Below are positions 25,716 through 41,415 of a stretch of DNA of 64,000 nucleotides, piece after piece (positions within the stretch are counted from its first letter, which is position 1; each line of letters opens with the position of its first letter). The notes beneath the pieces were generated by a model. The model did not search any database. It had not been told where the DNA came from and saw only the letters and a list, made by a program, of their open reading frames with translations. A program made the position numbers and the translations under genes. The stretch is taken from contig NZ_MKQR01000011.1 of the NCBI RefSeq assembly GCF_001940455.1, forward strand, positions 186,001 to 250,000, given 5' to 3'. The stretch is from Actinokineospora bangkokensis (GTDB lineage: Bacteria; Actinomycetota; Actinomycetes; Mycobacteriales; Pseudonocardiaceae).

Positions 25716-26509
25716 GCGCGGCTCCGTTCGCGTTCGAGGACCCGGGAGATCCGGTTGGCGGCCAGCACCACGACCATCACCGTGATGCCGGGCAGGGCGG
25801 TCAGCCACCAGGCCAGGCCCAGGTAGTCGCGCCCGTCGGAGACGAGCGCGCCCCACTCCGGGGCGGGCGGGGGCTGGCCGTAGCCGAGGAAGCTCAGCGA
25901 GGACACGCCGAGCACGACGATGCCGAAGTCCAGCGCCGCCAGCGCCAGCACCGGGCCCGCGGCCGCGGGCAGCACGTACCGGGGCAGCACCTGCCACCAG
26001 CGCGCACCGCACATCACCGCCGCCTCGACGTAGACCGCGGTGCGCACGCGGACCACCTCCGAGCGCATGACCCTGGCGAAGGCGGCGACGCTGGTGATGC
26101 CGACCGCCACCGCCACGTTGACCGTGCCGAACCCCAGCGCGCTGATCACCAGCAGCGACAGCAGCACCGGCGGGATGGCCAGCGCCACCTCCAGCACGCG
26201 CATGACCACCGCGTCGAGCCAGCCGCCGAAGTACCCGGCCACCAGGCCGAGCAGGGCACCGACGACCACGGCCAGGGCGATGGCGAGCACGGCGGCCTTG
26301 AGCGAGAGCGCCGCGCCCGCCACCACCCTGGCGTAGACGTCGCGGCCGAGGTGGTCGGTGCCGAACAGGTGCTCCCAGCTGGGCGGGAGGAACTTCTGCG
26401 CGGCCACCCCGGCCACCGGGTCCTGCCCGCTGAACAGGCCGGGGGCCAGCGCCCAGCCCAGCACAAGCAGCAGCACCGCGGCCGAGAGCAGGGAACCGGG
26501 TCGCCTCAC
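25712..26509 (-). CDS. ABC transporter permease (DppC-like)
   Basis: 265 residues. An N-terminal helix is followed by a periplasmic loop with FGTDHLGRDVYARVVAGAA, the hallmark of DppC/OppC/NikC, then five membrane helices. The EAA-like cytoplasmic loop EAAVMCGARWWQVLPRYVLP contacts the ATPase. The GTG start overlaps the DppB-like gene stop by 4 bp. Confidence 0.92.
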   Translation of the reverse strand: MRRPGSLLSAAVLLLVLGWALAPGLFSGQDPVAGVAAQKFLPPSWEHLFGTDHLGRDVYARVVAGAALSLKAAVLAIALAVVVGALLGLVAGYFGGWLDAVVMRVLEVALAIPPVLLSLLVISALGFGTVNVAVAVGITSVAAFARVMRSEVVRVRTAVYVEAAVMCGARWWQVLPRYVLPAAAGPVLALAALDFGIVVLGVSSLSFLGYGQPPPAPEWGALVSDGRDYLGLAWWLTALPGITVMVVVLAANRISRVLERERSRA

Positions 26510-27462
26510 CGCGCCACCGCCGCCCGGCCGGTGGACCTGATGCGCGGGTCGAGCACGGGGTAGAGCAGGTCGACCGCGAGGTTGACCACCACGAAGGCCA
26601 GCGAGGCGACCACGACCACCCCCTGCACCACCGGCAGGTCCTGGGTGCTGACGGCGAAGAAGATGTCGCGGCCCATGCCCGGGCGGGCGAACACCGTCTC
26701 CACCAGCACCGACCCGCCGATCACCGACCCGGTGAGCAGCCCGAACACCGTCACCGCCGGGATGGCGGCGTTGCGCAGCCCGTGCCCGAGCAGCACCCGC
26801 AACCGGCTCGCGCCGACGGCGCGGGCGGTGTCGGCGTACGGCTCGTGCAGGGTGGCGTGCAGGCTCTTGCTGAGCACCTGCCCCACCAGCGCCGTGCCCG
26901 GGATGGCCAGGGTGCACGCGGGCAGCACCAGGCTCGCGAACCCGTCGTCGCCCAGCGAGGGCAGCAGGCCCAGGTCGAGCGAGAACACCTGGATCAGCAT
27001 CAGCCCCACCCAGAACGAGGGCATCGACACCGCGATCGAGGGCACCGAGCGCAGCACCTGGCGCCCCAGCGGGCTGCGCACGTGGTTGGCCGCCACCGCC
27101 AGCGCCGTCCCGGCCAGCAGGGCCAGCACGAGCGCGGCGGCGCCCAGGCGCAGGGTTCCGGGCAGCGCGGCGGAGATCATCGCCGACACCGGCTGCCCGG
27201 TCTGGATGGAGCGGCCGAAGTCGCCGTGCAGCGCCTCGACCAGCGCGCCGAGGTACTGGTCCAGGACCGGGCGGTCGAAGCCCAGCTCCGCGCTCACCCT
27301 GGCGACCTCCGCCGGGGAGGCGGACTCGCCGTCACCGCGGCCGTTGAGCATGAGCGCCACCGGGTCGCCCGGCAGCAGGCGGACGGCGATGAAGGTGGTG
27401 GTGAACGCGGCCCACACCACGAACAGCGCCTGGGCCACCCGTCCGGCGAGGTAGGTCAGCAC
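26506..27462 (-). CDS. ABC transporter permease (DppB-like)
   Basis: 318 residues. The typical DppB/OppB/NikB N-terminus (TYLAGRVAQALFVVWAAFTTTF) and RLLPGDPVALML are followed by the periplasmic DRPVLDQYLGALVEALHGDFGRS region and five helices. The EAA loop is ARAVGASRLRVLLGHGLRNA. It starts 4 bp downstream of the substrate-binding protein gene. Confidence 0.92.
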   Translation of the reverse strand: MLTYLAGRVAQALFVVWAAFTTTFIAVRLLPGDPVALMLNGRGDGESASPAEVARVSAELGFDRPVLDQYLGALVEALHGDFGRSIQTGQPVSAMISAALPGTLRLGAAALVLALLAGTALAVAANHVRSPLGRQVLRSVPSIAVSMPSFWVGLMLIQVFSLDLGLLPSLGDDGFASLVLPACTLAIPGTALVGQVLSKSLHATLHEPYADTARAVGASRLRVLLGHGLRNAAIPAVTVFGLLTGSVIGGSVLVETVFARPGMGRDIFFAVSTQDLPVVQGVVVVASLAFVVVNLAVDLLYPVLDPRIRSTGRAAVAR

Positions 27463-27466: not shown

Positions 27467-29023
27467 TCACCCCAGTTCCGCCTCGTGCAGGTTCAGCCGC
27501 AGCGAGGCGTCGAACGCGAGGTCGGTGACCTTGTCCGAGACCGCGCTGACGAGCGAGCCCTCGTAGAGCGGCACCGTGTCGGCGTGGTCGAGGATCCAAT
27601 TCACGGCGTTGGTGACTGCGGTCTGCCGCTCGGCGGCGGTGGCGGCGGACAGCTGCTGCTCCAGGTAGGTGTCGAGCTGGCTGGCGGGCAGGTGCCAGAG
27701 GTTCTGACCCTTGCTGTAGAACAGGTTGCGCAGCACGTCCGGGTCGGCCCGGGAGACCGCGACGGCGGTGATGTCGAAGTTGCCCGCGCTCTGCTGCTCG
27801 ACGTACTTGGCGGGCGGCACCGCGTTGAGCTGGAGCTCCACGCCGATCTTCTTCAGCTGGGCCTGCACCTGCTCGTTGGCCGCGGGCATGGGCGCGGGGA
27901 TGAGCCAGTTCAGGGTCAACCGCGCCCCGTCCTTGACGCGGACGCCGTCGGCGCCCTTGACCCACCCGGCCTCGTCGAGCAGCCGCTCCGCGCCCGCCTG
28001 GTCGAACTTGATCTGGGTCGTCGGCTGGTAGAACGGGGTGGACGAGGACAGCACGCTCGTGGCGGGCTTGGCGCGGGAGCCGAGGACCGTGGAGACCAGT
28101 TCCTCGCGGTTGATGCCGATCAGCAGCGCCTTGCGGACCCGCTCGTCGGCCAAGGCGCCCTTGTGGTTGAGCGACAGCGGGGCGACCACACCCGGCGACG
28201 GCGCGGACAGCAGCCGGAAGCCGCCGCTGGAGAAGGAGTCCTGGTCGGTGGGCTGGACCTGCGTGGCGACCTGCACCTGCCCCGAGCGCAGCGCGGTGGA
28301 GCGGGCGCCGTTCTCCGGGACGAAGACGAACTTCACCTGGTCGAGGTGGGCCGCGCCCTTCGTGGTCGCCAGCGAGGACGGCCAGGCGTAGTCGGGCCGC
28401 TTCTTGATGACGACTTCCTGGTTGGCGGTGTAGTGGTCGAGTACGAACGGCCCGGAGCCGACAAAGTCACCGCGGCAGCGGTCGGCCAGCGGCTTGGCGG
28501 CGGTGGCCTTGGACAGGATGCCCAGGCCCGCGCCGGAGGTGGCCTGCAGGAACTGCGCGTTGGGCTTGTCGAAGCCGATGGTGAACGTGCGCGCGTCGGT
28601 GATGGTGGTGCCGGTGTAGCCGCGGATGTAGGCGGGGGCGCCGTTGGCGGGCAGCTTCACCAGGTTGTCGTAGGTGGCCTTGACCGACTCGGAGTCCACC
28701 GGGGACCCGTCGGAGAAGGTGGCGCCCGCGCGCAGGGTGAACTGGAAGCGCTTGCCGCCGTCGAGGGCGGTGAACGACTCGGCCAGCCAGGGCACGACCT
28801 TGCCGGTCTTGGGGTCCTGGTCGGTCAGGGTGTCCACCAGGGACCGGGAGATGTCCAGCGACACCAGTTGGCCGGTCTGCTGCGGGTCGAGGCAGGTCGG
28901 GTCCGCGGGGGTCGCGATGGTCAGCGCGCCGCCCCCGGTCGTCGCGGCACCGGAGGCGCAGGCGGCGGTGGCGGTGACGGCGAGGAGGGCTACTGCGGTC
29001 CCGAGCGTTCGGGGGGTGGACAT
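27467..29023 (-). CDS. Solute-binding lipoprotein of the ABC importer (SBP_bac_5)
   Basis: 518 residues. Lipoprotein signal with lipobox ending TATAAC (Cys about residue 25). Family-5 motifs include PADPTCLDPQQTG near the N-terminus, VVPWLAESFTALDGGKRFQF and FTLRAGATFSDGSPVDSESV. The family binds oligopeptides, nickel or other small molecules; the ligand cannot be read from sequence. First gene of the eight-gene operon, preceded by the palindrome at 29086-29105 and divergent from TetR. The monooxygenase and rhodanese genes downstream suggest an organosulfur or similar ligand (inference). Confidence 0.92.
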   Translation of the reverse strand: MSTPRTLGTAVALLAVTATAACASGAATTGGGALTIATPADPTCLDPQQTGQLVSLDISRSLVDTLTDQDPKTGKVVPWLAESFTALDGGKRFQFTLRAGATFSDGSPVDSESVKATYDNLVKLPANGAPAYIRGYTGTTITDARTFTIGFDKPNAQFLQATSGAGLGILSKATAAKPLADRCRGDFVGSGPFVLDHYTANQEVVIKKRPDYAWPSSLATTKGAAHLDQVKFVFVPENGARSTALRSGQVQVATQVQPTDQDSFSSGGFRLLSAPSPGVVAPLSLNHKGALADERVRKALLIGINREELVSTVLGSRAKPATSVLSSSTPFYQPTTQIKFDQAGAERLLDEAGWVKGADGVRVKDGARLTLNWLIPAPMPAANEQVQAQLKKIGVELQLNAVPPAKYVEQQSAGNFDITAVAVSRADPDVLRNLFYSKGQNLWHLPASQLDTYLEQQLSAATAAERQTAVTNAVNWILDHADTVPLYEGSLVSAVSDKVTDLAFDASLRLNLHEAELG

Positions 29024-29085
29024 GGCGGACCTCACGTGGGGGGTGCGGGGTGGGGATCTCGGCACGGGGCCGGTTCTGAGGGTAA

Positions 29086-29105: not shown

Positions 29106-29149
29106 CAGCGGCCACCACCGGGCCGGGTTCTCGGAGGATGGGAGCGGAC

Positions 29150-29791
29150 TTGACAGCGCAGAAGGTCGTCGAACCGCGCGTGGCCCGCAAGCGCCGCTCG
29201 ATCCTGGCGGGCGCGCTGACCGTGTTCGGCCGGGTGGGCTACCTCAGCGCGAGCATCGAGATGATCGCCGCGGAGGCGGGCGCGTCCACCCGCACCATCT
29301 ACAACCACTTCGAGAACAAGGAGCAGCTGTTCATCACGGTGCTCATGGAGAGCTCGACGCGGGTGGCGGTGACCAGGGAGGCGCTGATCGAGCGGCACCT
29401 CGGCGGCCCGGTCGAGGACCTGGAGGCCGCGCTGGTGGCGCTGGCGAAGGAGTGGGTGCGGCCCAGCCAGGACTTCGACGACCACTTCCGCATCGTGCGC
29501 AGGTTGCGCGGGGAGGCCGACCGGTTCCCCCCGGAGGTCGTGCGCAGCTGGCAGGAGGCGGGCCCGCACCGGGCGCGGCGGGCGCTGGCGGCCAGGATGG
29601 CGACGCTGGCCGAGCGCGGGGCGATCGCGGTGGCGGACCCGGAACTGGCCGCGCAGCAGTTCATGGCGCTGGTGACCGACACCACGATCAGCCGGGCGGA
29701 GTTCAGCGCGACCGCGCTGGAGTCGGAGATCGACCGCATCGCCCGCGCCGGGGTGCACACCTTCCTGCACGGCTACCTGCCGCGCCGCTGA
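29150..29791 (+). CDS. TetR-family transcriptional regulator
   Basis: About 213 residues from TTG 29150 (GGGAG 5 nt upstream); ATG 29138 would add four residues but has its Shine-Dalgarno sequence directly abutting. The N-terminal HTH is recognisable (IEMIAAEAGASTRTIYNHFENKEQLF), as is a TetR C-terminal ligand domain with FMALVTDTTISRAEF. Divergent from the importer/LLM operon, which it probably represses. Its 3' end meets the PKS operon at a shared terminator. Confidence 0.9.
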   Translation: MTAQKVVEPRVARKRRSILAGALTVFGRVGYLSASIEMIAAEAGASTRTIYNHFENKEQLFITVLMESSTRVAVTREALIERHLGGPVEDLEAALVALAKEWVRPSQDFDDHFRIVRRLRGEADRFPPEVVRSWQEAGPHRARRALAARMATLAERGAIAVADPELAAQQFMALVTDTTISRAEFSATALESEIDRIARAGVHTFLHGYLPRR

Positions 29792-29806
29792 CCGCCCCGG
29801 GGGGCA

Positions 29807-29852
29807 CCGCTGGGGCCTGCCCGGGGCGAGACCCCCGGGCAGGCCCCAGCGG
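29807..29852. terminator. Bidirectional terminator between TetR and the PKS operon
   Basis: A perfect 20-bp stem (left arm 29807-29826, right arm 29833-29852) with 6-nt loop lies between two converging genes, 15 bp after the TetR stop and 17 bp after the SDR stop. It ends transcription from both sides. Confidence 0.9.
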
Positions 29853-29868
29853 CCCGTGTGGACGGTCC

Positions 29869-30693
29869 TCAGGTGCGGTCCGCGACGTTGCCCGCGTCCG
29901 CGCCGGGGGGCGCGAGCTTGGCCAGCGTGGGCAGGTGGGACAGGAACCCGCCGTCGACCGAGATGGTCTGCCCGGTGACGAAGCCCGCCGCGTCCGAGGC
30001 CAGGAACACCACGAACGCCGCCACGTCGGCGGGGGTGCCCAGGCGCGGGATGAGGTTGTGCTCCTTGATCTTGTCCTGCACGAACGGGGGCATGTCCGCG
30101 TCCAGCGCCGGGGTCTTGACGAGGCCGGGCGCCAGGGTGTTGCACCGGATGCCGTGCTCGCCGTAGGCGGCGGCGATGAACCGGGTGAGCGCGATCAGCC
30201 CGCCCTTGGAGCTGCCGTAGGCCACCATCGTCCGGTCGCCGGACAGGCCCTGCCCGCTGGCGATGTTGATGATGGAGCCGCCACCGCGCTCGATGAGGAC
30301 GGGCACGGTGTGCTTGGCCAGCAGCATCGGCCCGCGCAGGTTCACCGCCATGACCTCGTCCCACAGCTCGACGGGCATGGCCACCACGTCGCGGTCCTTC
30401 TTGATGGCCGAGACGAGCGCGGCGTTGTTGTCCACCACGTCGACGCCGCCGAAGGTGTCCACGGTGAACCGGACCAGCGAGCGGACGCTGTCCTCGGAGG
30501 ACACGTCCACCACGCGCCCGGCCACCTTGTGCCCCTGCGCGGTCAGGGTGTCGACCACCTCCCCCACCGCGTCCTCGGCGACGTCGGCGACGACGACGCG
30601 CGCACCCGCCTCCGCCAGCGCCGCGACGGTGGCGGCGCCGATGCCCCCGGCGCCGCCGGTGACGATCGCGACCTTGCCCTCCAGGGAGCTCAT
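29869..30693 (-). CDS. SDR oxidoreductase, last gene of the type II PKS operon
   Basis: 274 residues. NAD(P)-binding TGGAGGIG at about 13-20, the NNAA motif (here VDNNAALV), catalytic Ser in INIASGQG and YGSSK as the YxxxK. Classical SDR distinct from the ActIII-type ketoreductase at 33749-34540. As a tailoring reductase it could reduce a carbonyl on the polyketide scaffold after ring formation. The ATG overlaps the O-methyltransferase stop by 4 bp. The C-terminal tail after SVDGGFL (about 25 residues, Pro/Ala-rich) is longer than usual. Confidence 0.9.
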   Translation of the reverse strand: MSSLEGKVAIVTGGAGGIGAATVAALAEAGARVVVADVAEDAVGEVVDTLTAQGHKVAGRVVDVSSEDSVRSLVRFTVDTFGGVDVVDNNAALVSAIKKDRDVVAMPVELWDEVMAVNLRGPMLLAKHTVPVLIERGGGSIINIASGQGLSGDRTMVAYGSSKGGLIALTRFIAAAYGEHGIRCNTLAPGLVKTPALDADMPPFVQDKIKEHNLIPRLGTPADVAAFVVFLASDAAGFVTGQTISVDGGFLSHLPTLAKLAPPGADAGNVADRT

Positions 30694-31697
30694 GCCCGCA
30701 CCGCCTCCACCACGCTGCAGAACCCGGTGGGCACGATGCGCGAGAGCGCCAGCCCCGAGGCCGCGAACAGGTCCGCGAACTCCGCCTCGGTGCGCTGCTT
30801 GCCGTCGCAGAGCACCAGCATGTTCAGGTCCATCAGCTTCACCGTGGGGGCAGGCTCGGCCTTGCCCGGCATGATGACCTCGGCCAGCAGCACCCGGGCG
30901 CCGGGGTTCATCGCGGCGCGCACGTTGGACAGGATCCTGGTGGACTTCTCGTCGTCCCAGTCGTGGATGACGTTGGACAGCAGGTAGGCGTCGCCGCCGC
31001 CGGGCACGCTGTCGAAGAAGGACCCGCCCGCGGTGGTGAACCGGTCGGCCACGTCCGGGTGCGACACCCCCGCGACGACCTCGGGCTGGTCGTAGAGCAC
31101 CCCGCGCACGCCGGGGTTGCGGCGCAGCACCTCGGCCAGCAGCGCGCCGTGCCCGCCGCCGACGTCGACCACCGTGCCGAAGGCGCTGAAGTCGTAGGCG
31201 GCGACGACCGGCTTGATCATCTGGTTGGACGCGCCGGTCATGGCGTTGTTGAACACCGCGGCGGTGTCGGTGTGGGTGGCCATGTACTCCCACACGTCCT
31301 GGCCGTGCACCGCCTCGAACGCCGAGCGGCCGGTGCGCACCGAGTCGGCCAGCCCGGACCAGCTGTAGCGGTCGGCCGGGTCCCCGACCCACTGGGCGAA
31401 CCCGCGCATCGACAGCGGGCTGTCGGCGCGCAGGGCGTCCCCGAGCTCGGTGAGGGCGAAGACCTGGTCGTCGTGCTCGGTGAACAGGTCGAAGTCCGCG
31501 CACGCCCGCAGCAGCCGGTACAGGGTGGGGGCGTGCGCGCCGATCTCCTCGGCGAGGTCGTCGACCCGGCGCGGGCCCGCCGCGAGGGCGTCGGCGACGC
31601 CCAGCGAGGCCGCGGCGCTCACCGCCGCGGACATCCAGCCGGCCGTGGCCAGCTGGAGGATGCGGGCGGGGATCGGGATCTGCGGAGGGGTGGTCAT
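30690..31697 (-). CDS. SAM-dependent O-methyltransferase (polyketide-type, COMT fold)
   Basis: 335 residues. An N-terminal winged-helix dimerisation domain (PTLYRLLRACADFDLF) is followed by a SAM-binding motif VVDVGGGHGALL (about 171-182) and the family motif SNVIHDWDDEKSTRIL with the His used as base in plant COMT and in TcmO/DnrK relatives. It methylates a phenolic hydroxyl of the aromatic polyketide (inference from operon). Overlaps both neighbours by 4 bp. Confidence 0.93.
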   Translation of the reverse strand: MTTPPQIPIPARILQLATAGWMSAAVSAAASLGVADALAAGPRRVDDLAEEIGAHAPTLYRLLRACADFDLFTEHDDQVFALTELGDALRADSPLSMRGFAQWVGDPADRYSWSGLADSVRTGRSAFEAVHGQDVWEYMATHTDTAAVFNNAMTGASNQMIKPVVAAYDFSAFGTVVDVGGGHGALLAEVLRRNPGVRGVLYDQPEVVAGVSHPDVADRFTTAGGSFFDSVPGGGDAYLLSNVIHDWDDEKSTRILSNVRAAMNPGARVLLAEVIMPGKAEPAPTVKLMDLNMLVLCDGKQRTEAEFADLFAASGLALSRIVPTGFCSVVEAVRA

Positions 31698-32782
31698 GCG
31701 CTGCTCCTAACACCGCTGAATCGGGTGGCGAGGTGGGTTTGGACCTGCGGGAGGGCGACCAGCTCGGCCAGCACCGAGCGCACCGGCTCGACCTCGGGCC
31801 CGCCGAGCAGCAGGTCCTCCTGCGCCGCCACCCAGCGCAGGACCTCGGCCCCGGCGGGGTGGCGTTCGTCGTGGTAGCCGTCGAGCGAGCCGCCGGGGCC
31901 CAGCGCGCGGCCCAGGCTGACCGCGTCGGCCAGGCCGGTGTTGAGCGCCTGGCCGCCGATGGGCAGGTGCCGGTGGGCGGCGTCGCCCGCCAGGAACACC
32001 CGCCCGCGCCGGTACCGGCGGGCGTGCCCGCGGGCGTTGTCGAAGGCGTCGACCCACAGCGGGGTGCCGCCGGAGATGTCCTCCCCGGTGACCCGAGCCC
32101 AGGTGCGCGCCACCTCCGCGAAGTCGGGTCGACCGCCGGTGACCCCGCGGTCGTGGGCGTGCACCATCACCCGGGTCACCCCGCCGCGGGTGGCGGCCAC
32201 GGCGAGGCCGCCGGGCAGCCGCTCGAACCGGCGGTCGGGCACGGTGATCCCGGTGACGTCGGCGCGCAGCAGCTCGCGGGTGGCGGGGACCAGGTCGTAG
32301 TCGAACCCCGCCAGCCCGCGCACCGCGCTGTCCTGCCCGTCGGCGCCGACCAGGTACTCCGCGCGCAGCGGGTCCCGGCCCGCGAACCGCGCGAGCACGT
32401 GGTCGTCGTGCTGGGTGAGGCCGACCAGCTGGTGCCCGCGCAGCAGCCGGGCGCCGCGGTCGAGCGCCCAGCGGGTGAGCGCGGCCTCGGTGCGGTGCTG
32501 GGCGACCTTCCAGTTCCCGGCCAGCGGGCTGTCCACACCGGACAGGTCGAACCCGAGCCCGGCGAAGTGCGACCGCGGCTCGGGCACCGCCTCGGCGAGC
32601 AGGTCGCGCAGGCCGCGCTCGGCCAGCAGCTCGGCGGAGCGGGTGGACAGCTGGGAGGCGCGGGACTCGGTCATGGGCTCGGTGAGCCGGTCGACCACGG
32701 TCGCCCCCACCCCGGCACCGGCCAGCTCCCCCGCCAGCAGCAGCCCGACCGGGCCCGCGCCCACCACCAGGACGTCGGTCAC
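31694..32782 (-). CDS. FAD-dependent aromatic monooxygenase lacking the C-terminal domain
   Basis: 362 residues from GTG. FAD motifs GAGPVG (8-13), GADGQDSAVR and FLAGDAAHRHLPIGGQALN are intact, but the protein stops about 100 residues short of the usual 470-540 because the thioredoxin-like C-terminal domain is absent. Shortened members of this family do occur in aromatic polyketide clusters. Probably a ring hydroxylase or oxidative-rearrangement enzyme acting on the tailored scaffold. It starts 1 bp after the aromatase/cyclase stop. Confidence 0.9.
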   Translation of the reverse strand: MTDVLVVGAGPVGLLLAGELAGAGVGATVVDRLTEPMTESRASQLSTRSAELLAERGLRDLLAEAVPEPRSHFAGLGFDLSGVDSPLAGNWKVAQHRTEAALTRWALDRGARLLRGHQLVGLTQHDDHVLARFAGRDPLRAEYLVGADGQDSAVRGLAGFDYDLVPATRELLRADVTGITVPDRRFERLPGGLAVAATRGGVTRVMVHAHDRGVTGGRPDFAEVARTWARVTGEDISGGTPLWVDAFDNARGHARRYRRGRVFLAGDAAHRHLPIGGQALNTGLADAVSLGRALGPGGSLDGYHDERHPAGAEVLRWVAAQEDLLLGGPEVEPVRSVLAELVALPQVQTHLATRFSGVRSSA

Positions 32783-32783
32783 C

Positions 32784-33713
32784 TCAGCGGCCCTCGGCGT
32801 GCTTCTTGGCGTGGCCCAGGGTGGCCAGGCTGTTGGTGCCCAGGGCGTTGCGGATGAACGCCCTGGCCTCGTCGACGCCCTTGCCCTCACCCAGCACGGC
32901 GGTGATGTTGTCCTCGTTGATGCGCACGGTGTGCCGGGAGGTGGCGGTGACGCCCCCACCGGGGCGGTCCTCGAACAGCCAGTGCCCGGTGTGCAGGGAC
33001 AGCAGGGCGGGCAGCGCCGTCTGCTTGTAGACGATCTTGCGCGGGGGCAGCGCCACCCGGATGGACTCGGTGGTGTGGGTGGAGCCGTCCTTGGTCAGGG
33101 TGTCCATCGCCAGCACCTGCAACCCCGGGGTGTCCTCGGTGAACCGCACCCGCGCCACGTGCGGCAGCCGCTCCTGCCACAGCTGCGCCTGGTTGATGAA
33201 GTCGAACACGTCCTCGGCGCGGCCGTCGACGTCGACGGCGTCCTCGAAGCTGAACACCAGGTCACCCGCGGCCTCGGCGTTCTCCTTCAGCGCGGCCAGC
33301 TCGACCCGGCTGTTGCGGTCGACGGCCTCGTCGATCCACTCCAGGTCGGCGGGGTCGTCGGTGGCGGCGCGGTAGTCGTGCAGCAGCCGCACCCGGGAGG
33401 TCTCCTCGGTCAGCGGCTCCACCACCCACGCCCCGCCCATGCCGCCCACCGGCGGCTGGGACACCTCCTGGCGGAAGTCGACGCGCAGCCCGGCGGGGTC
33501 GAGCTCGCGGCGCGAGGTCCAGGTCTTGGCGGTGCCGTTGGCGGTGGCCCAGAGCCGGATGCGCTCGGAGCGCTCGTCGCGGGCCAGGTGCTCGACGTGC
33601 ACGGTGGGGGTGAACAGCTGCGGCCAGTTCTGCACGTCGGCGACGAGCTGGTAGACCGCCTTGGCGGGGGCGGCGACGGTGATCTCGTGCTCGACGGCGC
33701 GCTCGGTGGGCAT
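32784..33713 (-). CDS. Di-domain aromatase/cyclase (SRPBCC/START fold)
   Basis: 309 residues in two START-like halves (about 1-150 and 155-309). Each begins with the polyketide cyclase hallmark: HEITVAAPAKAVYQLVADVQNWPQLF, and FEDAVDVDGRAEDVFDFINQAQLW. Di-domain enzymes partner ActIII-type ketoreductases and close and aromatise the C7-C12 first ring of C9-reduced poly-beta-ketones. Both a KR and a di-domain ARO/CYC are in this operon, as expected for reduced scaffolds. Confidence 0.94.
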   Translation of the reverse strand: MPTERAVEHEITVAAPAKAVYQLVADVQNWPQLFTPTVHVEHLARDERSERIRLWATANGTAKTWTSRRELDPAGLRVDFRQEVSQPPVGGMGGAWVVEPLTEETSRVRLLHDYRAATDDPADLEWIDEAVDRNSRVELAALKENAEAAGDLVFSFEDAVDVDGRAEDVFDFINQAQLWQERLPHVARVRFTEDTPGLQVLAMDTLTKDGSTHTTESIRVALPPRKIVYKQTALPALLSLHTGHWLFEDRPGGGVTATSRHTVRINEDNITAVLGEGKGVDEARAFIRNALGTNSLATLGHAKKHAEGR

Positions 33714-33748
33714 GGCTCTCCTCGGGGCGGGGGTGCGGGGTGGGTGGG

Positions 33749-34540
33749 TCAGAAGTTGCCGAGCCCGCCGCAGACGTTGAGCGCCTGCGCGGCGATGGAG
33801 CCCGCGACGTCGCTGGCCAGGTAGCCGATGAGGCCCGCGACCTCCTCGGCGGTGGCGTAGCGGCCCAGCGGGATCTTGGCCTCGAAGCGGGTGAGGATGT
33901 CGCCCTCGGTGGTGTCCCACGCCGCGGCGTAGCCCTGGCGGACCCGCTGCGCCATCGGCGTCTCGACGTAGCCGGGGCACACGGCGTTGACGGTGATGCC
34001 GGTCTTGGCCAGCTCGTTGCCCAGCGCCTTGGTGAAGCCCACGACGCCGTGCTTGGACGCGGAGTAGGGCGCGCCGAGCACCACGCCCTGCTTGCCCGCG
34101 GTCGAGGCGACGTTGATGATCCGCCCCCAGCCCTTGTCCCGCATCCCGCCGACCGAGAGCACGTCGCGGGTGGTGAGGAAGACGCTGTTGAGGTTGGTGT
34201 TGATCACGTCGAACCACAGGTCGTCGGCGATGTCGGCGGTGACCCCGCCACCGCTGCGGCCCGCGTTGTTGACCAGGATGTCGATGGTGCCGTAGCGGTC
34301 GACCGCGCTGGTGACCAGCGAGCGCACCTGCTCGGGCGAGCCGACGTCGGCGGTGGTGCCGTCGACCTCGTAGCCCTTGTCGCGCAGCTGCTTGACGGTC
34401 AGCGCGACGTTGTCGGCGTTGCGCGCGTTGATGAAGACGCGGTGGCCCCTGGCCGCCAGCAGCTCGGCGGTGGCCAGGCCGATGCCGCTGGTGGCACCGG
34501 TGACGATGGCGGTCTTGGCGGTGTCCTGCGTGCCGGTCAC
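33749..34540 (-). CDS. Type II PKS ketoreductase (ActIII-like, C9 ketoreductase)
   Basis: 263 residues from GTG. TGATSGIG nucleotide-binding motif, NNAG, catalytic Ser in NVASTAGKQG, and YSASK. The substrate-orienting PGG motif of ActIII-type enzymes (NNAGRPGGG) reads NNAGRSGGG here, a Pro-to-Ser change at the position known to influence stereochemistry. Reduces the ACP-bound poly-beta-ketone, normally at C9, using NADPH. Located between ACP and aromatase/cyclase. Confidence 0.95.
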   Translation of the reverse strand: MTGTQDTAKTAIVTGATSGIGLATAELLAARGHRVFINARNADNVALTVKQLRDKGYEVDGTTADVGSPEQVRSLVTSAVDRYGTIDILVNNAGRSGGGVTADIADDLWFDVINTNLNSVFLTTRDVLSVGGMRDKGWGRIINVASTAGKQGVVLGAPYSASKHGVVGFTKALGNELAKTGITVNAVCPGYVETPMAQRVRQGYAAAWDTTEGDILTRFEAKIPLGRYATAEEVAGLIGYLASDVAGSIAAQALNVCGGLGNF

Positions 34541-34560
34541 GTGTGCTCCTCCTGTCCCGG

Positions 34561-34836
34561 TCAGCCCGCGTTGACCAGCGCCAGGAACTCCCGCGGGGTC
34601 CGGGAGGTGGCGGCGGCGTCGTCGTCGAAGGTGATGCGGTGCTCGCGGGTGATGCGGGCCACCGCCTCCAGCAGGGCCAGCGAGTCGTAGCCCAGGTCGT
34701 CGAAGGGGGTGTCGAGGATGTCGGCGTCGAGGTCGACGCCCGCCTGCACGCCCGCGCTCTCGACGAGCACGCGCTTGAGGTCGTCGAGCGAGAGCGCGCC
34801 GGTGGTCGGCTGGGCGGTGGTCTCGGTGGTGGTCAC
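34561..34836 (-). CDS. Acyl carrier protein of the type II PKS
   Basis: 91 residues. The phosphopantetheine attachment site is Ser52 in DDLGYDSLALLE. The ~15-residue Thr-rich N-terminal tail before the four-helix core is longer than usual. It carries the growing chain for the KS-alpha/KS-beta pair. It needs a PPTase and malonyl-CoA:ACP transacylase from elsewhere in the genome. Gene gaps of 9 bp to KS-beta and 20 bp to the ketoreductase confirm the operon. Confidence 0.96.
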   Translation of the reverse strand: MTTTETTAQPTTGALSLDDLKRVLVESAGVQAGVDLDADILDTPFDDLGYDSLALLEAVARITREHRITFDDDAAATSRTPREFLALVNAG

Positions 34837-34845
34837 GGGTTCCTC

Positions 34846-36051
34846 CTAGTGGGACGGTGCCCGCACGACGACGGCGGAGTTGAAGCCGCCGTGGCCGCGG
34901 GCGAGGACGAGGGCGGTGCGGACCGCGGCCTCGCGGGGTTGGTCGGTGACGAGGTCGAGCCGGTGCGCCGGGTCGGGCTCGACCCGGGTGGTGGGCGGGA
35001 TCAGGCCGTCGCGGATGGACAGCAGCGCGTAGGCCACGTCCACCGGCGCGGCACCGGCGTACAACCGGCCGGTGGTGGTCTTGGGCGCGGTGACCGGCAC
35101 CCCGGCGGGGCCGAACACCGCGGCGAGCGCGTCGGACTCCACCCGGTCGAGCTCGGGGACCCCGGCGGCGTCGGCGAACACGACGTCGACCTGGTCGGGG
35201 CGCACGCCCGCGTCGTCGAGGGCGCCGGTGATCGCCCGGCCGAGCGCGGGGCCGCGGTCGCTGCCCGGGCGGGGGTCGAAGGTCGCGGCGTAGCCCGCCA
35301 GCTCGCCGTAGGGCCTGCGCTCGGTGGCGGCGTCCTCGACGATGAGGATCGCCCCGCCCTCGCCCGCCACGTGCCCGTCGGCGCGGGCGTCGAAGGGCAG
35401 GTACGCGGTGGCGGGGTCCTCGGCGGTGGTGAGCCGCCCGCCTGCCAGCTGCGCCACCCAGCCCCAGGGGCAGATCGAGCCGTCGACCCCGCCGGAAACG
35501 ATGAGCTTGCTGCCCCTGCGCAGGTGGCGGCGGGCCTGGCCGAGGGCGTCGAGGCCGCCCGCCTGGTCGGTGACGACGACCCCGCTGGGGCCCTTGAGCC
35601 CGTTGCGGATGGAGATCTGCCCGGTGTTGACGGCGTAGAACCAGGCGAAGGACTGGTAGGCGCTGACGTACTGGCTGCCCCGGCTCCACAGGTTCTGCAG
35701 CTCGCGCTGGCCGAACTCGAACCCGCCCGCGGAGCTCGCGGTGACCACTCCCATGTCGAAGGCGGGCAGCTGCCGCGGGGTGATGCCCGCGTCGGCCAGC
35801 GCCCAGTCGGCGGCGACGAGGGCGAAGCGGGTCATGTAGTCGGTCTGCGGGAGCAGCCGGTTCTCCAGGTGGTCCTCGGCGACGAAGTCGGGCACCTCCC
35901 CGGCGAGGGTGGCCGGGTAGCCGCCCGCGTCGAACCGGCGCACCGGGCCGATGGCGTCCTTGCCCGCGAGCGCGGCCTGCCAGACCGCCTCGGTGCCCAG
36001 CCCGGTGGGCGCCACGACCCCGATGCCGGTGATGACGGCGCGCGCGCTCAC
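34846..36051 (-). CDS. Ketosynthase beta / chain length factor (KS-beta, CLF)
   Basis: 401 residues from GTG, overlapping KS-alpha by 4 bp. Thiolase fold like KS-alpha, but the active-site Cys is replaced by Gln ([13 protein letters not shown]), the defining mark of CLF, which decarboxylates malonyl-ACP and sets chain length. Residues lining the chain tunnel would be needed to predict the number of extensions; I cannot assign this reliably by eye. Confidence 0.96.
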
Positions 36052-37304
36052 GACGGGTCCCGCAGCACGATCGCGCTCTGGAAGCCGCCGAAGCCGCTGC
36101 CGACGCTGAGCACCGTGCGCACCGGCCACTCCCGGGCGGTCAGCGGCACGTAGTCCAGGTCGCACTCGGGGTCGGGGGTGTGCAGGTTCGCCGTGGGCGG
36201 CACCACGTCGTGCTGGATGGCCAGGACCGACGCGGCGACCTCCAGCGAGCCGATGGCGCCGAGGGAGTGGCCGATCATCGATTTGATGGAGCTGACCGGT
36301 ACGTCGTGGGCGTGGTGCCCGAGCGAGAGCTTGAAGGCGGCGGTCTCGTGCCGGTCGTTCTGCTTGGTGCCCGAGCCGTGCGCGTTGACGTAGTCGACCT
36401 CGGTGGGGTCGAGCCGGGCCTCGTCGAGCGCGCGGGTGATGGCCTCGGCCATCTCGGCGCCGTCGGGGCGCAGCCCGGTCATGTGGTAGGCGTTGCAGCG
36501 CGAGGCGAACCCGGCGACCTCGGCGTAGACGCGCGCACCGCGGGCGCGGGCCCGCTCCAGGTCCTCCAGGACGAACACCGCGGCGCCCTCACCCAGGACG
36601 AACCCGTTGCGGGTGGCGTCGAAGGGCCGGGAGGCGTGCTCGGGGTCGTCGTTGCGCGGGGTGGTGGCCTTGATCGCGTCGAAGCAGGCCAGGGTGATCG
36701 GGGAGATCGGCGCGTCGGTGGCCCCGGCGACCACGACGTCGACCGCGCCCTCGCGCACCAGTTCGGCGGCGTAGCCGAGGGAGTCCAACCCGGACGTGCA
36801 CCCGGCCGAGACCACCGAGGCCGGGCCCTCGGCGCCCACCGCCCACGCCACCTCGGTGGCGAAGGAGCTGGGGACCAGGAAGTTGTACAGGTGCGGGGCG
36901 CCGTAGCGGTGGTCGACCTCGTGCAGGCGCCCGTCGTCGCTGACGACCCGGTACTCCTGCTCCAGGCCGGTGGTGGCGCCCACGGCGGTGCCGATGGTGA
37001 CGCCCAGCCTGCCCGGGTCGAGGTCGTCGAAGGCCAGGCCGCTGTCGGCGACGGCCTCGCGGGCGGCGACCACGGCGAACTGCGCGGCCCGGTCCATCCG
37101 CCGGATCTCCTGCGGGGTCAGCCCGGCCAGTTCGGGGTCGAAGTCGGCCTCGGCCGCCACCCGGGAGCGGAACGGCGCCGGGTCGAAGAAGCTGATGCCC
37201 CGGGTGGCGGTGCGCCCGGCCGTGAGCAGGTCCCAGAACGCCTTGGTGCCGTTGCCGCCGGGGGCGATGACGCCGACCCCGGTGATCACCACCCGGCGGC
37301 TCAC
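36048..37304 (-). CDS. Ketosynthase alpha (KS-alpha) of the type II PKS
   Basis: 418 residues from GTG. Catalytic Cys169 in [14 protein letters not shown], His in [11 protein letters not shown] and the Lys/His pair in [15 protein letters not shown] match the actinorhodin enzyme spacing. Forms the heterodimer with KS-beta that builds the poly-beta-ketone from malonyl units. Overlaps the TcmI-like cyclase by 4 bp. Confidence 0.97.
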
Positions 37305-37630
37305 TTGTCCTCCCAGTGGTAGAAGCGGGTCGCCATGGCGTCCTTGGGCGAGCGCCAGGTGACCGGGTCGTAGGCCTCGATGAACGGCTTGAGGTCGTCG
37401 GAGATCCGCACGAACCGCGGGTGCTCGCGGGTCTGCTGGATGGCGTCGCTGCCGTGCTCGCCGTCGAAGTCCTGGAGGTGGAAGTACAGGCCGCGGTAGT
37501 GGAACAGCTCGCGCCTGCGGGTGCCCATCAGCTGCGGCAGCTCGCTGCGGTCGAACTCGTCGAACAGCTCGGCCACCTCGGCGTGCGAGCCGGGGTCCAT
37601 CCTGGCCACGATCAGGGTGCTGTAGCTCAC
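37301..37630 (-). CDS. TcmI-family polyketide cyclase
   Basis: 109 residues of the small ferredoxin-like dimeric cyclase family: [21 protein letters not shown] at the start, [18 protein letters not shown] in the middle (in two halves) and the C-terminal [11 protein letters not shown], which is the TcmI signature. In tetracenomycin and pentangular pathways such enzymes close a late ring. Its presence beside a di-domain ARO/CYC suggests at least four fused rings. The start overlaps the upstream monooxygenase stop (4 bp). Confidence 0.93.
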
Positions 37631-39048
37631 GCTGGTTGCCTCTCGGTCTCGGTGGGTGCGGCGGCGGGGGTGGGGGCGGGCGCGCCGAACCAGCGGCGCA
37701 ACGCGGTGTCCAGGCCGTCGGCGGCGCCGTCCCCGGCCCAGGCCACGTAGCCGTCGGGGCGCACCAGCAGCGGCGGGCCGCCGGGGCGGTGGTCGACCCG
37801 GTCCGCCCAGCCCGCGACGGCGCCCGCGGGCACCCCGGTGGCCAGGCCGCGGGCGGTGGGCAGGTCGGCCCCGGGCAACCGGCGGCCCAGCAGCGGGTGG
37901 TCGCCGGGGCCGACGTCGTAGCGCACGTCCAGGCCACTGACCATGCCGGACAGGTGCCTGCCGACCTCGGGGATCTCGATCAGCTCGGCCACCACCGACC
38001 GCAGCGGCTCGACCTCCTCACCGCTGAGGTAGAGGTGGCCCTGGGCCCGGGTGTTGCGCAGCACGCGCGCGCCCACCGGGTGCCGCTCGGCGTGGTAGGT
38101 GTCGAGCAGGTCCGGCGGGGCCCAGCCGCGCACCACCGCGGCGAGCTTCCAGCCCAGGTTGGCCGCGTCCTGCACGCCCAGGCTCAGGCCCTGCCCGCCC
38201 GCGGGCAGGTGGGTGTGCGCGGCGTCGCCCGCGATGAGCACGCGCCCGCGCCGGTACTCGGTGACCTGCCGGGTGGCGTCGGTGAAGGCGCTGACCCAGC
38301 GGACCTCGGCGTCGTGCAGGCTCTCCCCGGTCAGCCGCTGCCAGGCGTCGGCGACCTCCGACCACCCGGGGGCGGTGCGCCGCTCCCGGTGCGGGGTGCC
38401 GCGCTCGCAGACGATGATGCGGTCCACTCCCCCGCCCAGCGGCGCGGACATGACCATGCCGCCGGGCACCCGCTCCCCGATGAACCGGGGCTTGATGCCC
38501 CGGCCCACGACGTCGGCCAGGTACATCTCCCGGCTGGCCGGGGTGCCGGGGAAGTCGAACCCGGCGAGGCCGCGCACGGTGCTGCGACCGCCGTCGGCGG
38601 CGACGAGGTGGGAGCCCTCGAACTCCACCCGGCCGTCCGGCCCGGCCACGGCGGCGACCACGCCGTCGGCGTCCTGGTGCAGGCCGACGACCTCGTGCCC
38701 GCGCAGCACCCGGGCGCCCAGCTCGACCGCCCACCGCTCCAGCAGCCGTTCCGTGCGGTCCTGCGGGATGCCGCGCACGCCGAAGTGCGACCCCTCCAGG
38801 ACGCTGTAGTCCATGGGGATGCCGCCGAAGTGCCCCTGCGGGCTGGTCTCCACGTCGCCGAAGCGGCGCAGCAGCCCGCGCTGGGCGAACACCTCCGCGG
38901 CGCGGGCGGTGAAGCCCAGCCCGCGCGACTCGCCGCTGGGTCGCGGCGCGCGCTCCAGCACGAGCACGTCGGCGCCGCCGAGGCGCAGCTCGCCCGCGAG
39001 CAGCAGGCCCACCGGGCCCGCGCCCACCACGATGACCGGGCGGCTCAC
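37627..39048 (-). CDS. FAD-dependent aromatic polyketide monooxygenase (full length, PHBH fold)
   Basis: 473 residues from GTG. FAD motifs [15 protein letters not shown] and [24 protein letters not shown] (in two parts), plus a C-terminal thioredoxin-like domain ending [13 protein letters not shown]. It belongs with PgaE/RdmE/Rox-like hydroxylases. It likely hydroxylates the cyclised scaffold or forms a quinone. The two FAD enzymes of this operon (this and 31694-32782) are not close copies, so they probably act at different steps. Overlaps the ABM gene stop by 4 bp. Confidence 0.93.
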
Positions 39049-39737
39049 GGCTGCGCGGGTGCGGGCTCGGCCGACCGCGTGTGCACGGGCCGGTAGGTGT
39101 TGTAGTCGTGCGAGGTCAGCAGGGAGCGGGCGCGCTCGCGCATCCGGCGCACGCCCTCGGGGCGCTCGACCTCGGGCAGGGTGTGGAAGTGGTCGTAGGC
39201 GGCCTCGCTCTCCCACTGCGCGAAGTTGACGACCGCGGAGCCGTCGGTGGCGCGCAGGATGCTGTTGGAGCGGAACCCCGGGAACCCCTCCAGCCACTCG
39301 TCGTCCTGGGAGAACAGGTCCACCAGCTCGGCCTGGTCCTGCTGCTGCACGCCCATCACCGCGATGACGGTCAGGGTGTCGTTCTGCGGGCCGATCTCGA
39401 TGGCGCCCACCGACGGGTGCGTCCTGGTGTAGACCACCTCCGTCTGGATGAGCCGGACCTGGGTGGCCAGCTCGTCGAACAGCGGGACGATCTCCTTCTG
39501 GAACTTCTCGCCGTGGTAGCGGTTCTGCAGGTCCTCGGCGCTGCGCCACTGGATGTAGTTCGCGGTGCCGGGGCCGCCGACCCCGCCGAACAGCGTCGAG
39601 GAGATCCAGCCGGGGAAGTCGGCGGAGTCGATGATCCCGGTCATCGTGGTCAGCAGCCGCTGCTGGGCCGCCTGCGACGTGGCGCCGAACAGGTTCAGCA
39701 CCGTCAGGCGGTCGTCGGCCGCGGAAATGAACGCCAT
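39045..39737 (-). CDS. Di-domain antibiotic biosynthesis monooxygenase (ABM fold)
   Basis: About 230 residues from ATG 39737 (GGAGGAAAC just upstream; ATG 39776 would add 13 residues). Two ferredoxin-like ABM domains, about 5-110 and 118-215: NLFGATSQAAQQRLLTTMT...FPGWISSTLFGG, and VIAVMGVQQQDQAELVDLF...FPGFRSNSILRA. The family includes cofactor-free anthrone oxygenases such as ActVA-Orf6 that make quinones. First gene of the PKS operon, so it is controlled by the promoter in 39738-39915. Confidence 0.9.
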   Translation of the reverse strand: MAFISAADDRLTVLNLFGATSQAAQQRLLTTMTGIIDSADFPGWISSTLFGGVGGPGTANYIQWRSAEDLQNRYHGEKFQKEIVPLFDELATQVRLIQTEVVYTRTHPSVGAIEIGPQNDTLTVIAVMGVQQQDQAELVDLFSQDDEWLEGFPGFRSNSILRATDGSAVVNFAQWESEAAYDHFHTLPEVERPEGVRRMRERARSLLTSHDYNTYRPVHTRSAEPAPAQP

Positions 39738-39915: not shown

Positions 39916-40611
39916 TCAAGAGCCTGCGGAGGCGCGCGCGCCGACCCCGGCCGGGTATCCCAGGCGGAATCCGACGCCGCGCACGGTGGCGATCACCGCG
40001 GGGTCGCCGACCTTGCCGCGGATGCTGCTGACGTGCGTGTCGATGGTGCGGTCGGAGCGCGCCCACTCATCGCCCCACACCCTGGCCATGATGTCGCGGC
40101 GGGCGAAGACCTCGCCGGGCTCGGCGGCCAGCAGCCGCAGCAGGTCGAACTCCTTGCGGGTCAGCGGCACCAGCTCGGTGCAGCGGAAGACCTCGCGGGT
40201 GCGCGGGTCGATGCGCAGCGGGCCGCAGGAGATCACGTCCCAGCCCTGCCCGCCGTCGAGGGTGCGGCGCAGGATGGCGTCGGCGCGCGCCACCAGCTCG
40301 CGCACCCCCACCGGTCGCACCAGGTAGGCGTCCAGGCCCGCGCGCAGACCGGTGACCAGGTCGATGCCGCAGTCGCGGGGCGCGGTGCCGATCACCGGCA
40401 CCGGCCCCACCGCGTGCAGCGCCGCGCACACGTCCAGCCCGGGCGCCCCGGGTAAGCGCAGGTCGAGCACCACCAGGTCGGCCTCGGTGCCGCGGGCGAC
40501 GGCGTCGACGGCGCAGGAGACCACCTCGACCTCGTAGCCGTGCCTGCGCAGCGCGCCCGCCACCACCAGCGCCTCGACCGCGTCGCCGTCGGCCACCAGC
40601 ACCCTCGCCAT
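39916..40611 (-). CDS. Atypical OmpR-family response regulator, PKS cluster
   Basis: 231 residues from ATG with GGAGGACGG upstream. A receiver domain (about 1-115) precedes an OmpR winged helix (about 130-220: LTRKEFDLLRLLAAEPGEV, TIDTHVSSIRGKVGDPAVIATVRGVGFRLG). Phospho-acceptor Asp50 (LVVLDLRLP) and Thr76 are kept, but the nearly invariant receiver Lys is Arg99 (YLVRPVG) and one of the acidic-pocket pair is Gly9. No histidine kinase is nearby. This pattern resembles JadR1-type regulators that sense pathway products instead of phosphate. Last of the two regulator genes, reading toward the PKS operon. Confidence 0.9.
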   Translation of the reverse strand: MARVLVADGDAVEALVVAGALRRHGYEVEVVSCAVDAVARGTEADLVVLDLRLPGAPGLDVCAALHAVGPVPVIGTAPRDCGIDLVTGLRAGLDAYLVRPVGVRELVARADAILRRTLDGGQGWDVISCGPLRIDPRTREVFRCTELVPLTRKEFDLLRLLAAEPGEVFARRDIMARVWGDEWARSDRTIDTHVSSIRGKVGDPAVIATVRGVGFRLGYPAGVGARASAGS

Positions 40612-40740: not shown

Positions 40741-41415
40741 CTAAGCGCGGCCCAGCTTGAAACCGGTTCCGTGGACGGTGACGACCCATGACCGGGCACC
40801 CAATTTCGCGCGCAGCGCACCGACGTGGGTGTCGATTGTCCTGGTGGACTGGCCGCTGGAATCGTCCCAGACCTCGGCCATGATCCGGCCCCGGGTGAAC
40901 ACCGTTCCCGGTTCGGCCGCCAAGAGGGCGAGCAGGTCGAATTCCTTCGGCGTAAGCGCTATCCGCCGATCGCCGAGGTGCACCTCCCTGGCCCGGGTGT
41001 TGACCCGCAGGTCGCCGCGCACGACGACCTCGGCCGGGGGCGCGGGCTCCTCGGCGGGCGCGCCGCGCACCCGCCGCATCACCGCGTGGATGCGCGCGAC
41101 CAGCTCGGCCACCGGCACCGGCGTGCCCACGTAGTCGTCGAGCCCGGCCTGGAAGCCCAGCACCCGGTCGAGCTCGGAGTCCCGCGCGGACAGCGCGATC
41201 ACCGGCACCCGGCTGCGGGCCCGCAGCCTGCGGCACACCTCCAGGCCGTCGAGGTCGGGCAGGTCCAACCCGAGCAGCACCAGGTCGGCGCGCACCGGGC
41301 CGTCGAGCAGCGCGGCGCCGGTGCCTGCCAGCTCGACGGCGAAACCCCGGTCGCGCAGGCCGCCCGCCACGGCCCCCGCGGCGGTGGGATCGGCGTCCAC
41401 CAGCAGCAAGCGCAT
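40741..41415 (-). CDS. Atypical OmpR-family response regulator without phospho-acceptor Asp
   Basis: 224 residues. Receiver-like domain (1-120) plus OmpR winged helix (LTPKEFDLLALLAAEPGTV, TIDTHVGALRAKLGARSWVVTVHGTGFKLG). The phosphorylation-site Asp is replaced by Gly49 (ADLVLLGLDLPD) and the conserved Lys by Thr98 (YVGTPVP), so phosphorylation by a kinase is not expected. It is paralogous to the adjacent regulator and probably the pathway's activator or repressor, with ligand- or partner-dependent control (inference). Confidence 0.9.
   Translation of the reverse strand: MRLLLVDADPTAAGAVAGGLRDRGFAVELAGTGAALLDGPVRADLVLLGLDLPDLDGLEVCRRLRARSRVPVIALSARDSELDRVLGFQAGLDDYVGTPVPVAELVARIHAVMRRVRGAPAEEPAPPAEVVVRGDLRVNTRAREVHLGDRRIALTPKEFDLLALLAAEPGTVFTRGRIMAEVWDDSSGQSTRTIDTHVGALRAKLGARSWVVTVHGTGFKLGRA

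Follow-up and report, generated by a model that had tools for sequence, protein, structure and literature searches.

The closest described relatives of the locus examined here are gene clusters for the WS-5995 compounds. The wsm cluster of Streptomyces sp. S1502 was described as about 30 kb with 29 open reading frames, among them those for a methyltransferase, WsmH, and a homologue of GilOII and JadG, WsmI; deletion of wsmA abolished WS-5995 A-E, and expression of wsm in S. lividans gave WS-5995 B-E and not A (PMC11122949). A second cluster, wsd (MIBiG 2712) of S. yanglinensis CGMCC 4.2023, led to WS-5995 D (PMC11122949), and Streptomyces sp. AcH 505 is a reported maker of WS-5995 B and C (PMC3487804). 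JadG and GilOII belong with AlpJ and Flu17 to a family of oxygenases that cleave one ring of angucycline intermediates; whether flavin takes part varies with the substrate (PMC11181247). Here we describe a type II polyketide synthase (PKS) locus of Actinokineospora bangkokensis that resembles these clusters, found in a 64,000-nucleotide stretch (contig NZ_MKQR01000011.1, positions 186,001 to 250,000) that is called the window and whose numbering is used below.

Comparison with related loci delimited a cluster of 27 genes at positions 15620-41415, made up of a PKS half of 13 genes (g29-g41) and an accessory half of 14 (g15-g28). Gene content, protein families, catalytic residues, boundaries and co-distribution with the known WS-5995 cluster were observed, and from these we infer the product and every reaction proposed below. 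The product is likely to be a WS-5995-like, O-methylated, ring-opened (atypical) angucyclinone. In comparisons of loci, a match was one tblastn stretch with E <=1e-8 covering >35% of the query and assigned to the best-scoring window gene, which is not proof of orthology. When window genes g8-g49 were compared to 16 locus sets, matches started at g15 and ended at g41; g8-g14 and g42-g49 had no match in any of the 16 sets, of which some break off within the cluster. G724, the single-contig genome of a different genus of the family, carried all 27 genes at 66-86% identity, split into a run from g41 to g29 and a second block from g15 to g28, with no other window gene matched within the 60 kb read. 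The bounds of 15620 and 41415 were set because G724 holds the full complement and the flanking genes were unmatched in the 16 sets. By neighborhood comparison, many loci with the closest ABM-domain oxygenase were likewise found to share the PKS genes together with a second group equivalent to window positions 15620-29791.

At the wsd locus (L023 with flanks L148, L149 and L202; the record is of Actinacidiphila yanglinensis CGMCC 4.2023, the same strain number as the wsd source), 21 of the 27 window genes were matched with a mean identity of 57%, 17 of them at >=45%, in a count that runs one way, with window genes sought at the wsd locus. These matches were divided between 10 of 13 PKS-half genes (51-80% identity) and 11 of 14 accessory-half genes. 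The likeness covers the PKS core, ketoreductase (KR), aromatase, cyclase, ABM oxygenase, O-methyltransferase, short-chain dehydrogenase/reductase (SDR) and flavin adenine dinucleotide (FAD) oxygenases, and on the accessory side a sulfurtransferase, luciferase-like enzymes and importer-type genes; g17, g19, g22, g31, g40 and g41 were unmatched in the stretches fetched. The AcH 505 locus (L027, L153 and L199) matched 20 of 27 genes at a mean identity of 62%, 19 of them at >=45%, with g15, g16, g22, g28, g29, g31 and g40 unmatched in the stretches fetched. One ABM match each was detected in the wsd-strain and AcH 505 genomes. The wsm cluster, likened here by its published description, also combines a methyltransferase and a GilOII/JadG-type oxygenase. 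Outside the streptomycetes, Pseudonocardia endophytica matched 26 of 27 genes, four of them at <45% (the SDR, for example, at 38%), and 18 of 27 were matched in Frankia canadensis, on contigs that end inside the cluster; both have three extra genes between the acyl carrier protein (ACP) and KR genes that are absent in the window, one with an N-terminus that appears biotin carboxylase-like by eye. At one locus each, Micromonospora rosaria matched nine genes and Salinispora seven, and neither matched any of the accessory half.

These comparisons place the locus among the WS-5995-type clusters, as a new and well-bounded member from outside the Streptomycetaceae, and the novelty of its scaffold falls on comparison with wsd. 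The first-pass annotation of positions 29869-39737 had considered the scaffold unpredictable and possibly new, a view that gave way to the angucycline-cassette relatives described below and to the gene set recurring in wsd and AcH 505. The MIBiG cluster of the same gene order, high identity throughout and known product that it had named as removing the novelty was found in part: most genes match wsd, but the order differs and the PKS-half identity is 51-80% for 10 of 13 genes.

The genes of the PKS half, which include the ketosynthase subunits KS-alpha and KS-beta, are as follows.

40741..41415, minus strand: g41, OmpR-type response regulator at one end of the cluster (family scan, locus comparison)
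39916..40611, minus strand: g40, OmpR-type response regulator (family scan, locus comparison)
39045..39737, minus strand: g39, two-domain ABM oxygenase resembling the AlpJ/JadG/GilOII group (ABM 1.1e-10; PDB 9kdp E 6e-66, 5f9p E 2e-49)
37627..39048, minus strand: g38, FAD oxygenase of PgaE/CabE type (FAD_binding_3; PDB CabE E 2.9e-170, PgaE E 1.1e-169)
37301..37630, minus strand: g37, TcmI-fold cyclase, proposed fourth-ring cyclase (Cyclase_polyket PF04673 1.5e-43; PDB 8is2 and 1tuw, TcmI)
36048..37304, minus strand: g36, KS-alpha (Cys169; Pfam/NCBIfam scans)
34846..36051, minus strand: g35, KS-beta or chain length factor (Gln163; Pfam/NCBIfam scans)
34561..34836, minus strand: g34, ACP (PF00550)
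33749..34540, minus strand: g33, KR, proposed to act at C9 (Pfam/NCBIfam; 74% identity with the wsd ketoreductase)
32784..33713, minus strand: g32, di-domain aromatase/cyclase of BexL type (two Polyketide_cyc2 stretches; PDB BexL E 1e-122)
31694..32782, minus strand: g31, short FAD oxygenase of 362 amino acids (aa) (FAD_binding_3; in the position of the post-aromatase FAD oxygenase of wsd)
30690..31697, minus strand: g30, O-methyltransferase (Methyltransf_2 PF00891 1.1e-50; 65% identity to wsd, 61% to AcH 505)
29869..30693, minus strand: g29, SDR (PF13561; 74% identity to wsd)

The eleven minus-strand genes called across 29869-39737 agree with the operon first described from the sequence by eye, including its domains and the 4-bp overlaps, which are present at 6 of its 10 junctions (gaps of 1, 9, 20 and 35 bp separate the genes at the remaining ones). 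Gene classes were supported by Pfam and NCBIfam scans. The active-site cysteine of KS-alpha at residue 169 and its replacement by glutamine in KS-beta (Gln163) were confirmed, and the ACP has a DSL motif with the serine at residue 52 (read by eye). KS-beta is 72% identical to that of wsd and 67% to that of the M. rosaria locus. The general description of a type II PKS operon for a reduced, oxygenated and O-methylated aromatic polyketide, lacking a glycosyltransferase, also stood, as no glycosyltransferase or sugar gene was named by Pfam or NCBIfam scans among all genes called in 15620-47788. Glycosylated angucyclines, such as jadomycin or gilvocarcin glycosides, were set aside as products, with no glycosyltransferase or deoxysugar gene named over that interval. 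The same scans of 15620-47788 named no starter-unit gene, and no search was aimed at starter-unit genes. The two different FAD monooxygenases previously recognized do both have FAD_binding_3, with the correction that g38 carries a C-terminal Rng_hyd_C domain and the second enzyme, g31 (362 aa), does not. A further correction is that the cluster extends beyond 29869 and 39737, the eleven genes of the operon being 11 of its 27.

The order oxygenase, cyclase, KS-alpha, KS-beta, ACP, KR, aromatase, oxygenase is the canonical angucycline arrangement. In the window, the PgaE-type oxygenase g38 lies directly before the cyclase, KS-alpha, KS-beta, ACP, KR and aromatase, which are followed by an oxygenase, and these further features of the cassette are present (the KS-alpha active cysteine, KS-beta glutamine, ACP, KR, BexL-type aromatase/cyclase and TcmI-fold cyclase). 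Since the relatives of these genes, CabE/PgaE, BexL, a TcmI-fold cyclase and an AlpJ-type ABM oxygenase, form an angucycline cassette, an angucycline scaffold can be predicted. The cyclase g37, earlier called TcmI-like, does have the TcmI fold (PF04673, 1tuw) but is better read as an angucycline fourth-ring cyclase because of its position between the PgaE-type oxygenase and KS-alpha; we take it to be of the LanF/JadI type. BexL-type aromatase and PgaE/CabE-type oxygenase are also common to the BE-7585A and PgaE-type cassettes (we assume that BexL belongs to BE-7585A), and the window differs from these in having an extra ABM oxygenase and no named sugar or glycosyltransferase gene.

The accessory half comprises the following genes.

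29138..29791, plus strand: g28, TetR regulator (Pfam; 78% identity in a second genome of the G724 genus, G141, and 80% in G724)
27467..29023, minus strand: g27, solute-binding protein of an Opp/Nik-type ATP-binding cassette (ABC) importer (PF00496 4.4e-71; nearest NCBIfam TIGR04028, under cut-off)
26506..27462, minus strand: g26, ABC permease (NF045470 Opp2B, under cut-off)
25712..26476, minus strand: g25, ABC permease (NF045474 Opp2C, under cut-off)
24129..25715, minus strand: g24, ABC subunit with two ATPase stretches (PF00005, two stretches)
23116..24138, minus strand: g23, luciferase-like oxidoreductase, chosen as the accessory-block marker (PF00296 1.3e-52)
22701..23123, minus strand: g22, PPOX-class F420-dependent oxidoreductase family (TIGR03618, 87.4 bits against a cut-off of 79.05)
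21860..22699, minus strand: g21, mercaptopyruvate-type sulfurtransferase (rhodanese) (PF00581, two stretches; PRK11493 4.1e-35, under cut-off; motif CGSGVTA, which we take to mark the mercaptopyruvate type)
20929..21834, minus strand: g20, F420-dependent LLM-class (luciferase-like monooxygenase) oxidoreductase family (TIGR03619, 170.5 bits against a cut-off of 166.9)
20222..20689, plus strand: g19, MarR regulator (Pfam/NCBIfam scan)
18715..20130, minus strand: g18, major facilitator superfamily (MFS) exporter, DHA2-like (PF07690; TIGR00711 under cut-off)
18122..18718, minus strand: g17, hemerythrin-domain protein (PF01814)
17029..18114, minus strand: g16, FAD/NAD(P) oxidoreductase (PF07992)
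15620..17032, minus strand: g15, FAD aromatic hydroxylase at the other end of the cluster (nearest PDB rifampin monooxygenase 5kow, E 2.3e-93)

The MarR gene g19 was matched in 7 of 8 Streptomycetaceae WS-5995-type sets (AcH505, ADI95, Kaureo, Sardes, Shumi, Sspino and Ru62, not wsd). The response regulators g40 and g41 appear atypical by eye, with glycine apparently replacing the phospho-acceptor aspartate of g41 and the usual lysine before proline lacking in both; JadR1-like ligand sensing is a possible parallel. Just outside the conserved cluster, at 41673-42776, is a beta-lactamase-family gene (PF00144) that was unmatched in the 16 sets.

Whether the accessory half belongs with the PKS half was examined by the distribution of the ABM gene and g23. 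The ABM gene is rare, being found in 6 of 249 genomes of the family, this genome included; that draw listed 15 others from the same genus, and it was found in none of these. Of the 248 other family genomes, one had a high-identity g23 match (83%), with the runner-up at 44%, and in the genus holding that match g23 was found in 2 of 80 genomes, G141 and G724; no g23 orthologue was detected in 395 other genomes spread over the phylum. Candidates scored for g23 were limited to <=8 per genome in the family and <=5 in the streptomycete and phylum draws, so that an orthologue may be missed. Among 392 streptomycetes, in a draw centered on a genome picked for having the cluster (G251), 39 carried ABM and 4 a g23 orthologue, and all four of the latter carried ABM (Fisher 8e-5); with the center genome removed, 3 of 3 g23-positives had ABM, against 38 of 391 overall (Fisher 9e-4). 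A scan of named genomes for ABM relatives kept 80 of 148, and the g23 test covered 41 of those 80 loci. Of these 41 genomes, 10 had g23, and these were distributed as 10 of 18 inside the ABM clade of g39 compared to 0 of 23 outside it (Fisher 4e-5). The Fisher values ignore relatedness, and 8 of the 10 g23-positive named genomes are Streptomycetaceae. The accessory block marks a sub-group of the g39 clade and not the whole clade, because g23 is missing from 8 of its 18 genomes.

The most serious competing explanation takes the accessory half for an independent island with a catabolic or uptake function that merely adjoins the PKS operon, and we assign it a small chance. It is favored by G141, in which all 14 accessory genes but none of the 13 PKS-half genes were matched within the 40 kb fetched, no ABM match was found in the genome, and the ketosynthase matches were only distant (KS-alpha 40%, KS-beta 33%). 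The contig of G141, however, has its g15 match starting at base 92, the very point at which the PKS half adjoins in G724, so that the missing PKS half may reflect an assembly gap. The accessory genes of P. endophytica flank the PKS genes on both sides, and the association of g23 with ABM in the streptomycetes (4 of 4, one being the draw center) also argues against a chance neighbor. A single cluster of 27 genes is thus retained as the preferred reading.

Ring opening would depend on g39. An ordinary angucyclinone whose rings stay intact, with an ABM enzyme limited to quinone formation like ActVA-Orf6 and TcmH, is consistent with Pfam naming g39 only as ABM and with the reported resemblance of AlpJ-family enzymes to ActVA-Orf6 and TcmH (PMC11181247). 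We consider this outcome unlikely, as g39 matched ActVA-Orf6 only over a short stretch (E 2.7e-8) compared to nearly its full length for the two-domain PDB entries 9kdp and 5f9p (E 6e-66 and 2e-49), the architecture shared with AlpJ, JadG and GilOII (kinamycin, jadomycin and gilvocarcin). In addition, its closest neighborhoods include a WS-5995 cluster, whose sister cluster wsm has a reported GilOII/JadG homologue (PMC11122949).

In a tree of 86 ABM rows, from loci found by similarity, g39 fell in a clade of 22 rows (support 100/100) apart from the Salinispora and M. rosaria copies. It paired with the Frankia copy (100/96) on a long branch (0.62), and the tree program flagged long rows as unsure. 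This split bears on a kinamycin/fluostatin/lomaiviticin-type benzofluorene cluster, in which ring contraction would follow opening and which is very improbable here. AlpJ and Flu17 are in the same oxygenase group (PMC11181247). Between the second FAD oxygenase and its counterpart at the Salinispora locus the identity is 63%; we take the Salinispora locus to be lomaiviticin-type and that of M. rosaria fluostatin-type. By contrast, g39 lies outside the clade of both their copies, the methyltransferase is 39% identical to the Salinispora one compared to 65% for wsd, neither locus matched the accessory half, and no hydrazine or diazo gene was named among the genes scanned. Least probable of all is a lugdunomycin-type, C-ring-cleaving cluster (LugOIII/LugOV), for although C8 O-methylation is typical of that class (PMC10728087), its route is reported to need two ABM proteins and the cluster has one only, a profile of the ABM set (E up to 10) having given no weaker second kind of match in the proteins searched, including window 29001-42000, and Pfam/NCBIfam scans of g15-g28 having named no ABM.

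Several observations on the ABM relatives themselves were made. A two-domain ABM gene 47% identical to g39 occurs at L016:12644-13291 (G072), with no window PKS gene matched within the 20 kb fetched. The protein of L012:1501-2169 (G110) reads the same as PDB 9kdp by eye, and the structure seems to be from that species or a near relative. The ABM of a record titled Rhodococcus rhodnii NRRL B-16535 (L082) is identical to the copy of G093 (L019), a genome placed in the window's own family by the genome set, and the title may be a mislabel; a Kibdelosporangium aridum record (L089) pairs likewise with G147 (L018).

For the WS-5995-like angucyclinone that we prefer, KS-alpha, KS-beta and ACP would build a decaketide from acetyl and malonyl units, KR g33 would reduce C9, and the BexL-type aromatase/cyclase and TcmI-fold cyclase would close the rings to give prejadomycin/UWM6. 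The g38 oxygenase would then hydroxylate C12 (the CR1/dehydrorabelomycin stage), perhaps aided by the short oxygenase g31 in a dehydratase-like place, and g39 would oxidatively open the ring to an aldehyde/acid stage. By analogy with WsmH, g30 would O-methylate a D-ring hydroxyl. The SDR g29 and the accessory redox enzymes g15, g16 and g20-g23 may then convert what g39 has opened into a quinone acid, aldehyde or lactone, with g18 a putative exporter, g19, g28, g40 and g41 putative regulators, and the ABC importer g24-g27 predicted to take up some substrate.

Certain findings weigh against equating this product with WS-5995. The gene order of wsd differs from that of the window at the mean identity of 57%, and the wsd-locus matches to the MFS (33%), solute-binding protein (36%), TetR (43%) and one permease (44%) gene were too weak to be called orthologues; the wsd importer genes are 36-53% identical to those of the window, and its post-aromatase FAD oxygenase is 520 aa compared to 362 aa for g31. 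A gene of 150-171 aa near the methyltransferase in the five streptomycete loci in which its size was taken (L023, L024, L152, L156 and L157), and one of about 300 aa in L149, L151 and L154, have no window match, and therefore the end product may differ. The placement of g39 in the AlpJ/JadG/GilOII group is itself predicted from architecture, PDB relatives and neighborhood. A final difficulty is the order of methylation and ring opening. The wsm authors propose that WsmH acts on the D-ring hydroxyl before WsmI opens a ring that they call C (PMC11122949), the corresponding GilOII step being called B-ring cleavage in PMC10728087. Methylation before cleavage is hard to reconcile with the reported blocking of ring-B cleavage by an 8-methoxy group (PMC10728087). 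In view of the differences in gene content, the cluster may make a congener and not WS-5995 itself.

A methyltransferase at least 55% identical to g30 was found at 12 of 21 g39-clade loci compared to 2 of 62 others when primary loci were counted (the window was left out, as were L082 and L089, which duplicate L019 and L018). The numbers were 15 of 21 and 2 of 62 with extra flanks, an uneven comparison in which flanks were fetched for clade members only. Either the methyl group is added later, or the g39 clade accepts methylated substrates.

The second FAD oxygenase and the SDR were also examined for signs of gene damage or fission. The 520-aa post-aromatase enzyme of wsd is 54% identical to g31 over 377 positions and 48% to g38 over 505 positions, the latter with a slightly higher score as the alignment is longer. 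The short form of g31 also occurs in G724 (375 aa stop to stop), long forms are found in P. endophytica (528 aa) and Frankia (585 aa, both stop to stop), and in 5 of 15 other loci whose called protein has g31 as best window match the protein is <=401 aa. The idea that g31 is a frameshift-broken gene was dropped in view of the 4-bp overlap between its end and the start of the next gene, and because G724 shares the short form. A split-off reductase part of an UrdM/LanM-type fusion was similarly unsupported for g29, whose best PDB relatives are 3tzq and PtmO8; no LanV- or UrdM-named entry was among the best 60 of its 143 PDB matches.

The genome holds other PKS loci. A second type II set outside the window (C32, L020:8749-18945) is 77% (KS-alpha), 68% (KS-beta) and 45% (ACP) identical to that of the window. 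It adjoins matches to indole-3-glycerol phosphate synthase, phosphoribosylanthranilate (PRA) isomerase, tryptophan synthase alpha, Glycos_transf_3 and ectoine synthase, and lies beside an acyl-CoA dehydrogenase, an AMP-binding enzyme, a weak carrier-protein match and a cyclase, an odd mixture. On the same contig as the window (C11:186001-250000), a ketosynthase-domain array of about 100 kb with very long frames (C11:2779-106120) is type I PKS by appearance.

It is unusual for the genes of an aromatic polyketide to be accompanied by a block of importer and oxidoreductase genes, and here that block is conserved; no literature pairing luciferase-like monooxygenases with atypical angucyclines was among the matches listed. 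It is conceivable, although doubtful, that the 14-gene accessory half works as an independent module, importing the ring-opened naphthoquinone or its thiol adducts and converting them oxidatively or detoxifying them, that the making of the quinone antibiotic is coupled to re-uptake, that G141 is a module-carrying non-producer and that the g39 clade accepts O-methylated substrates. WS-5995-type gene sets outside the Streptomycetaceae are found in this genome, G724 of the same family, P. endophytica and F. canadensis. A guess at a new scaffold has become a testable product prediction, with 27 member genes defined by comparison. Two points of interest remain, the accessory module and the relative timing of methylation and ring opening; on the latter, the link between the ABM clade and a nearby methyltransferase bears on the seeming disagreement of two papers over whether O-methylation comes before or after opening.

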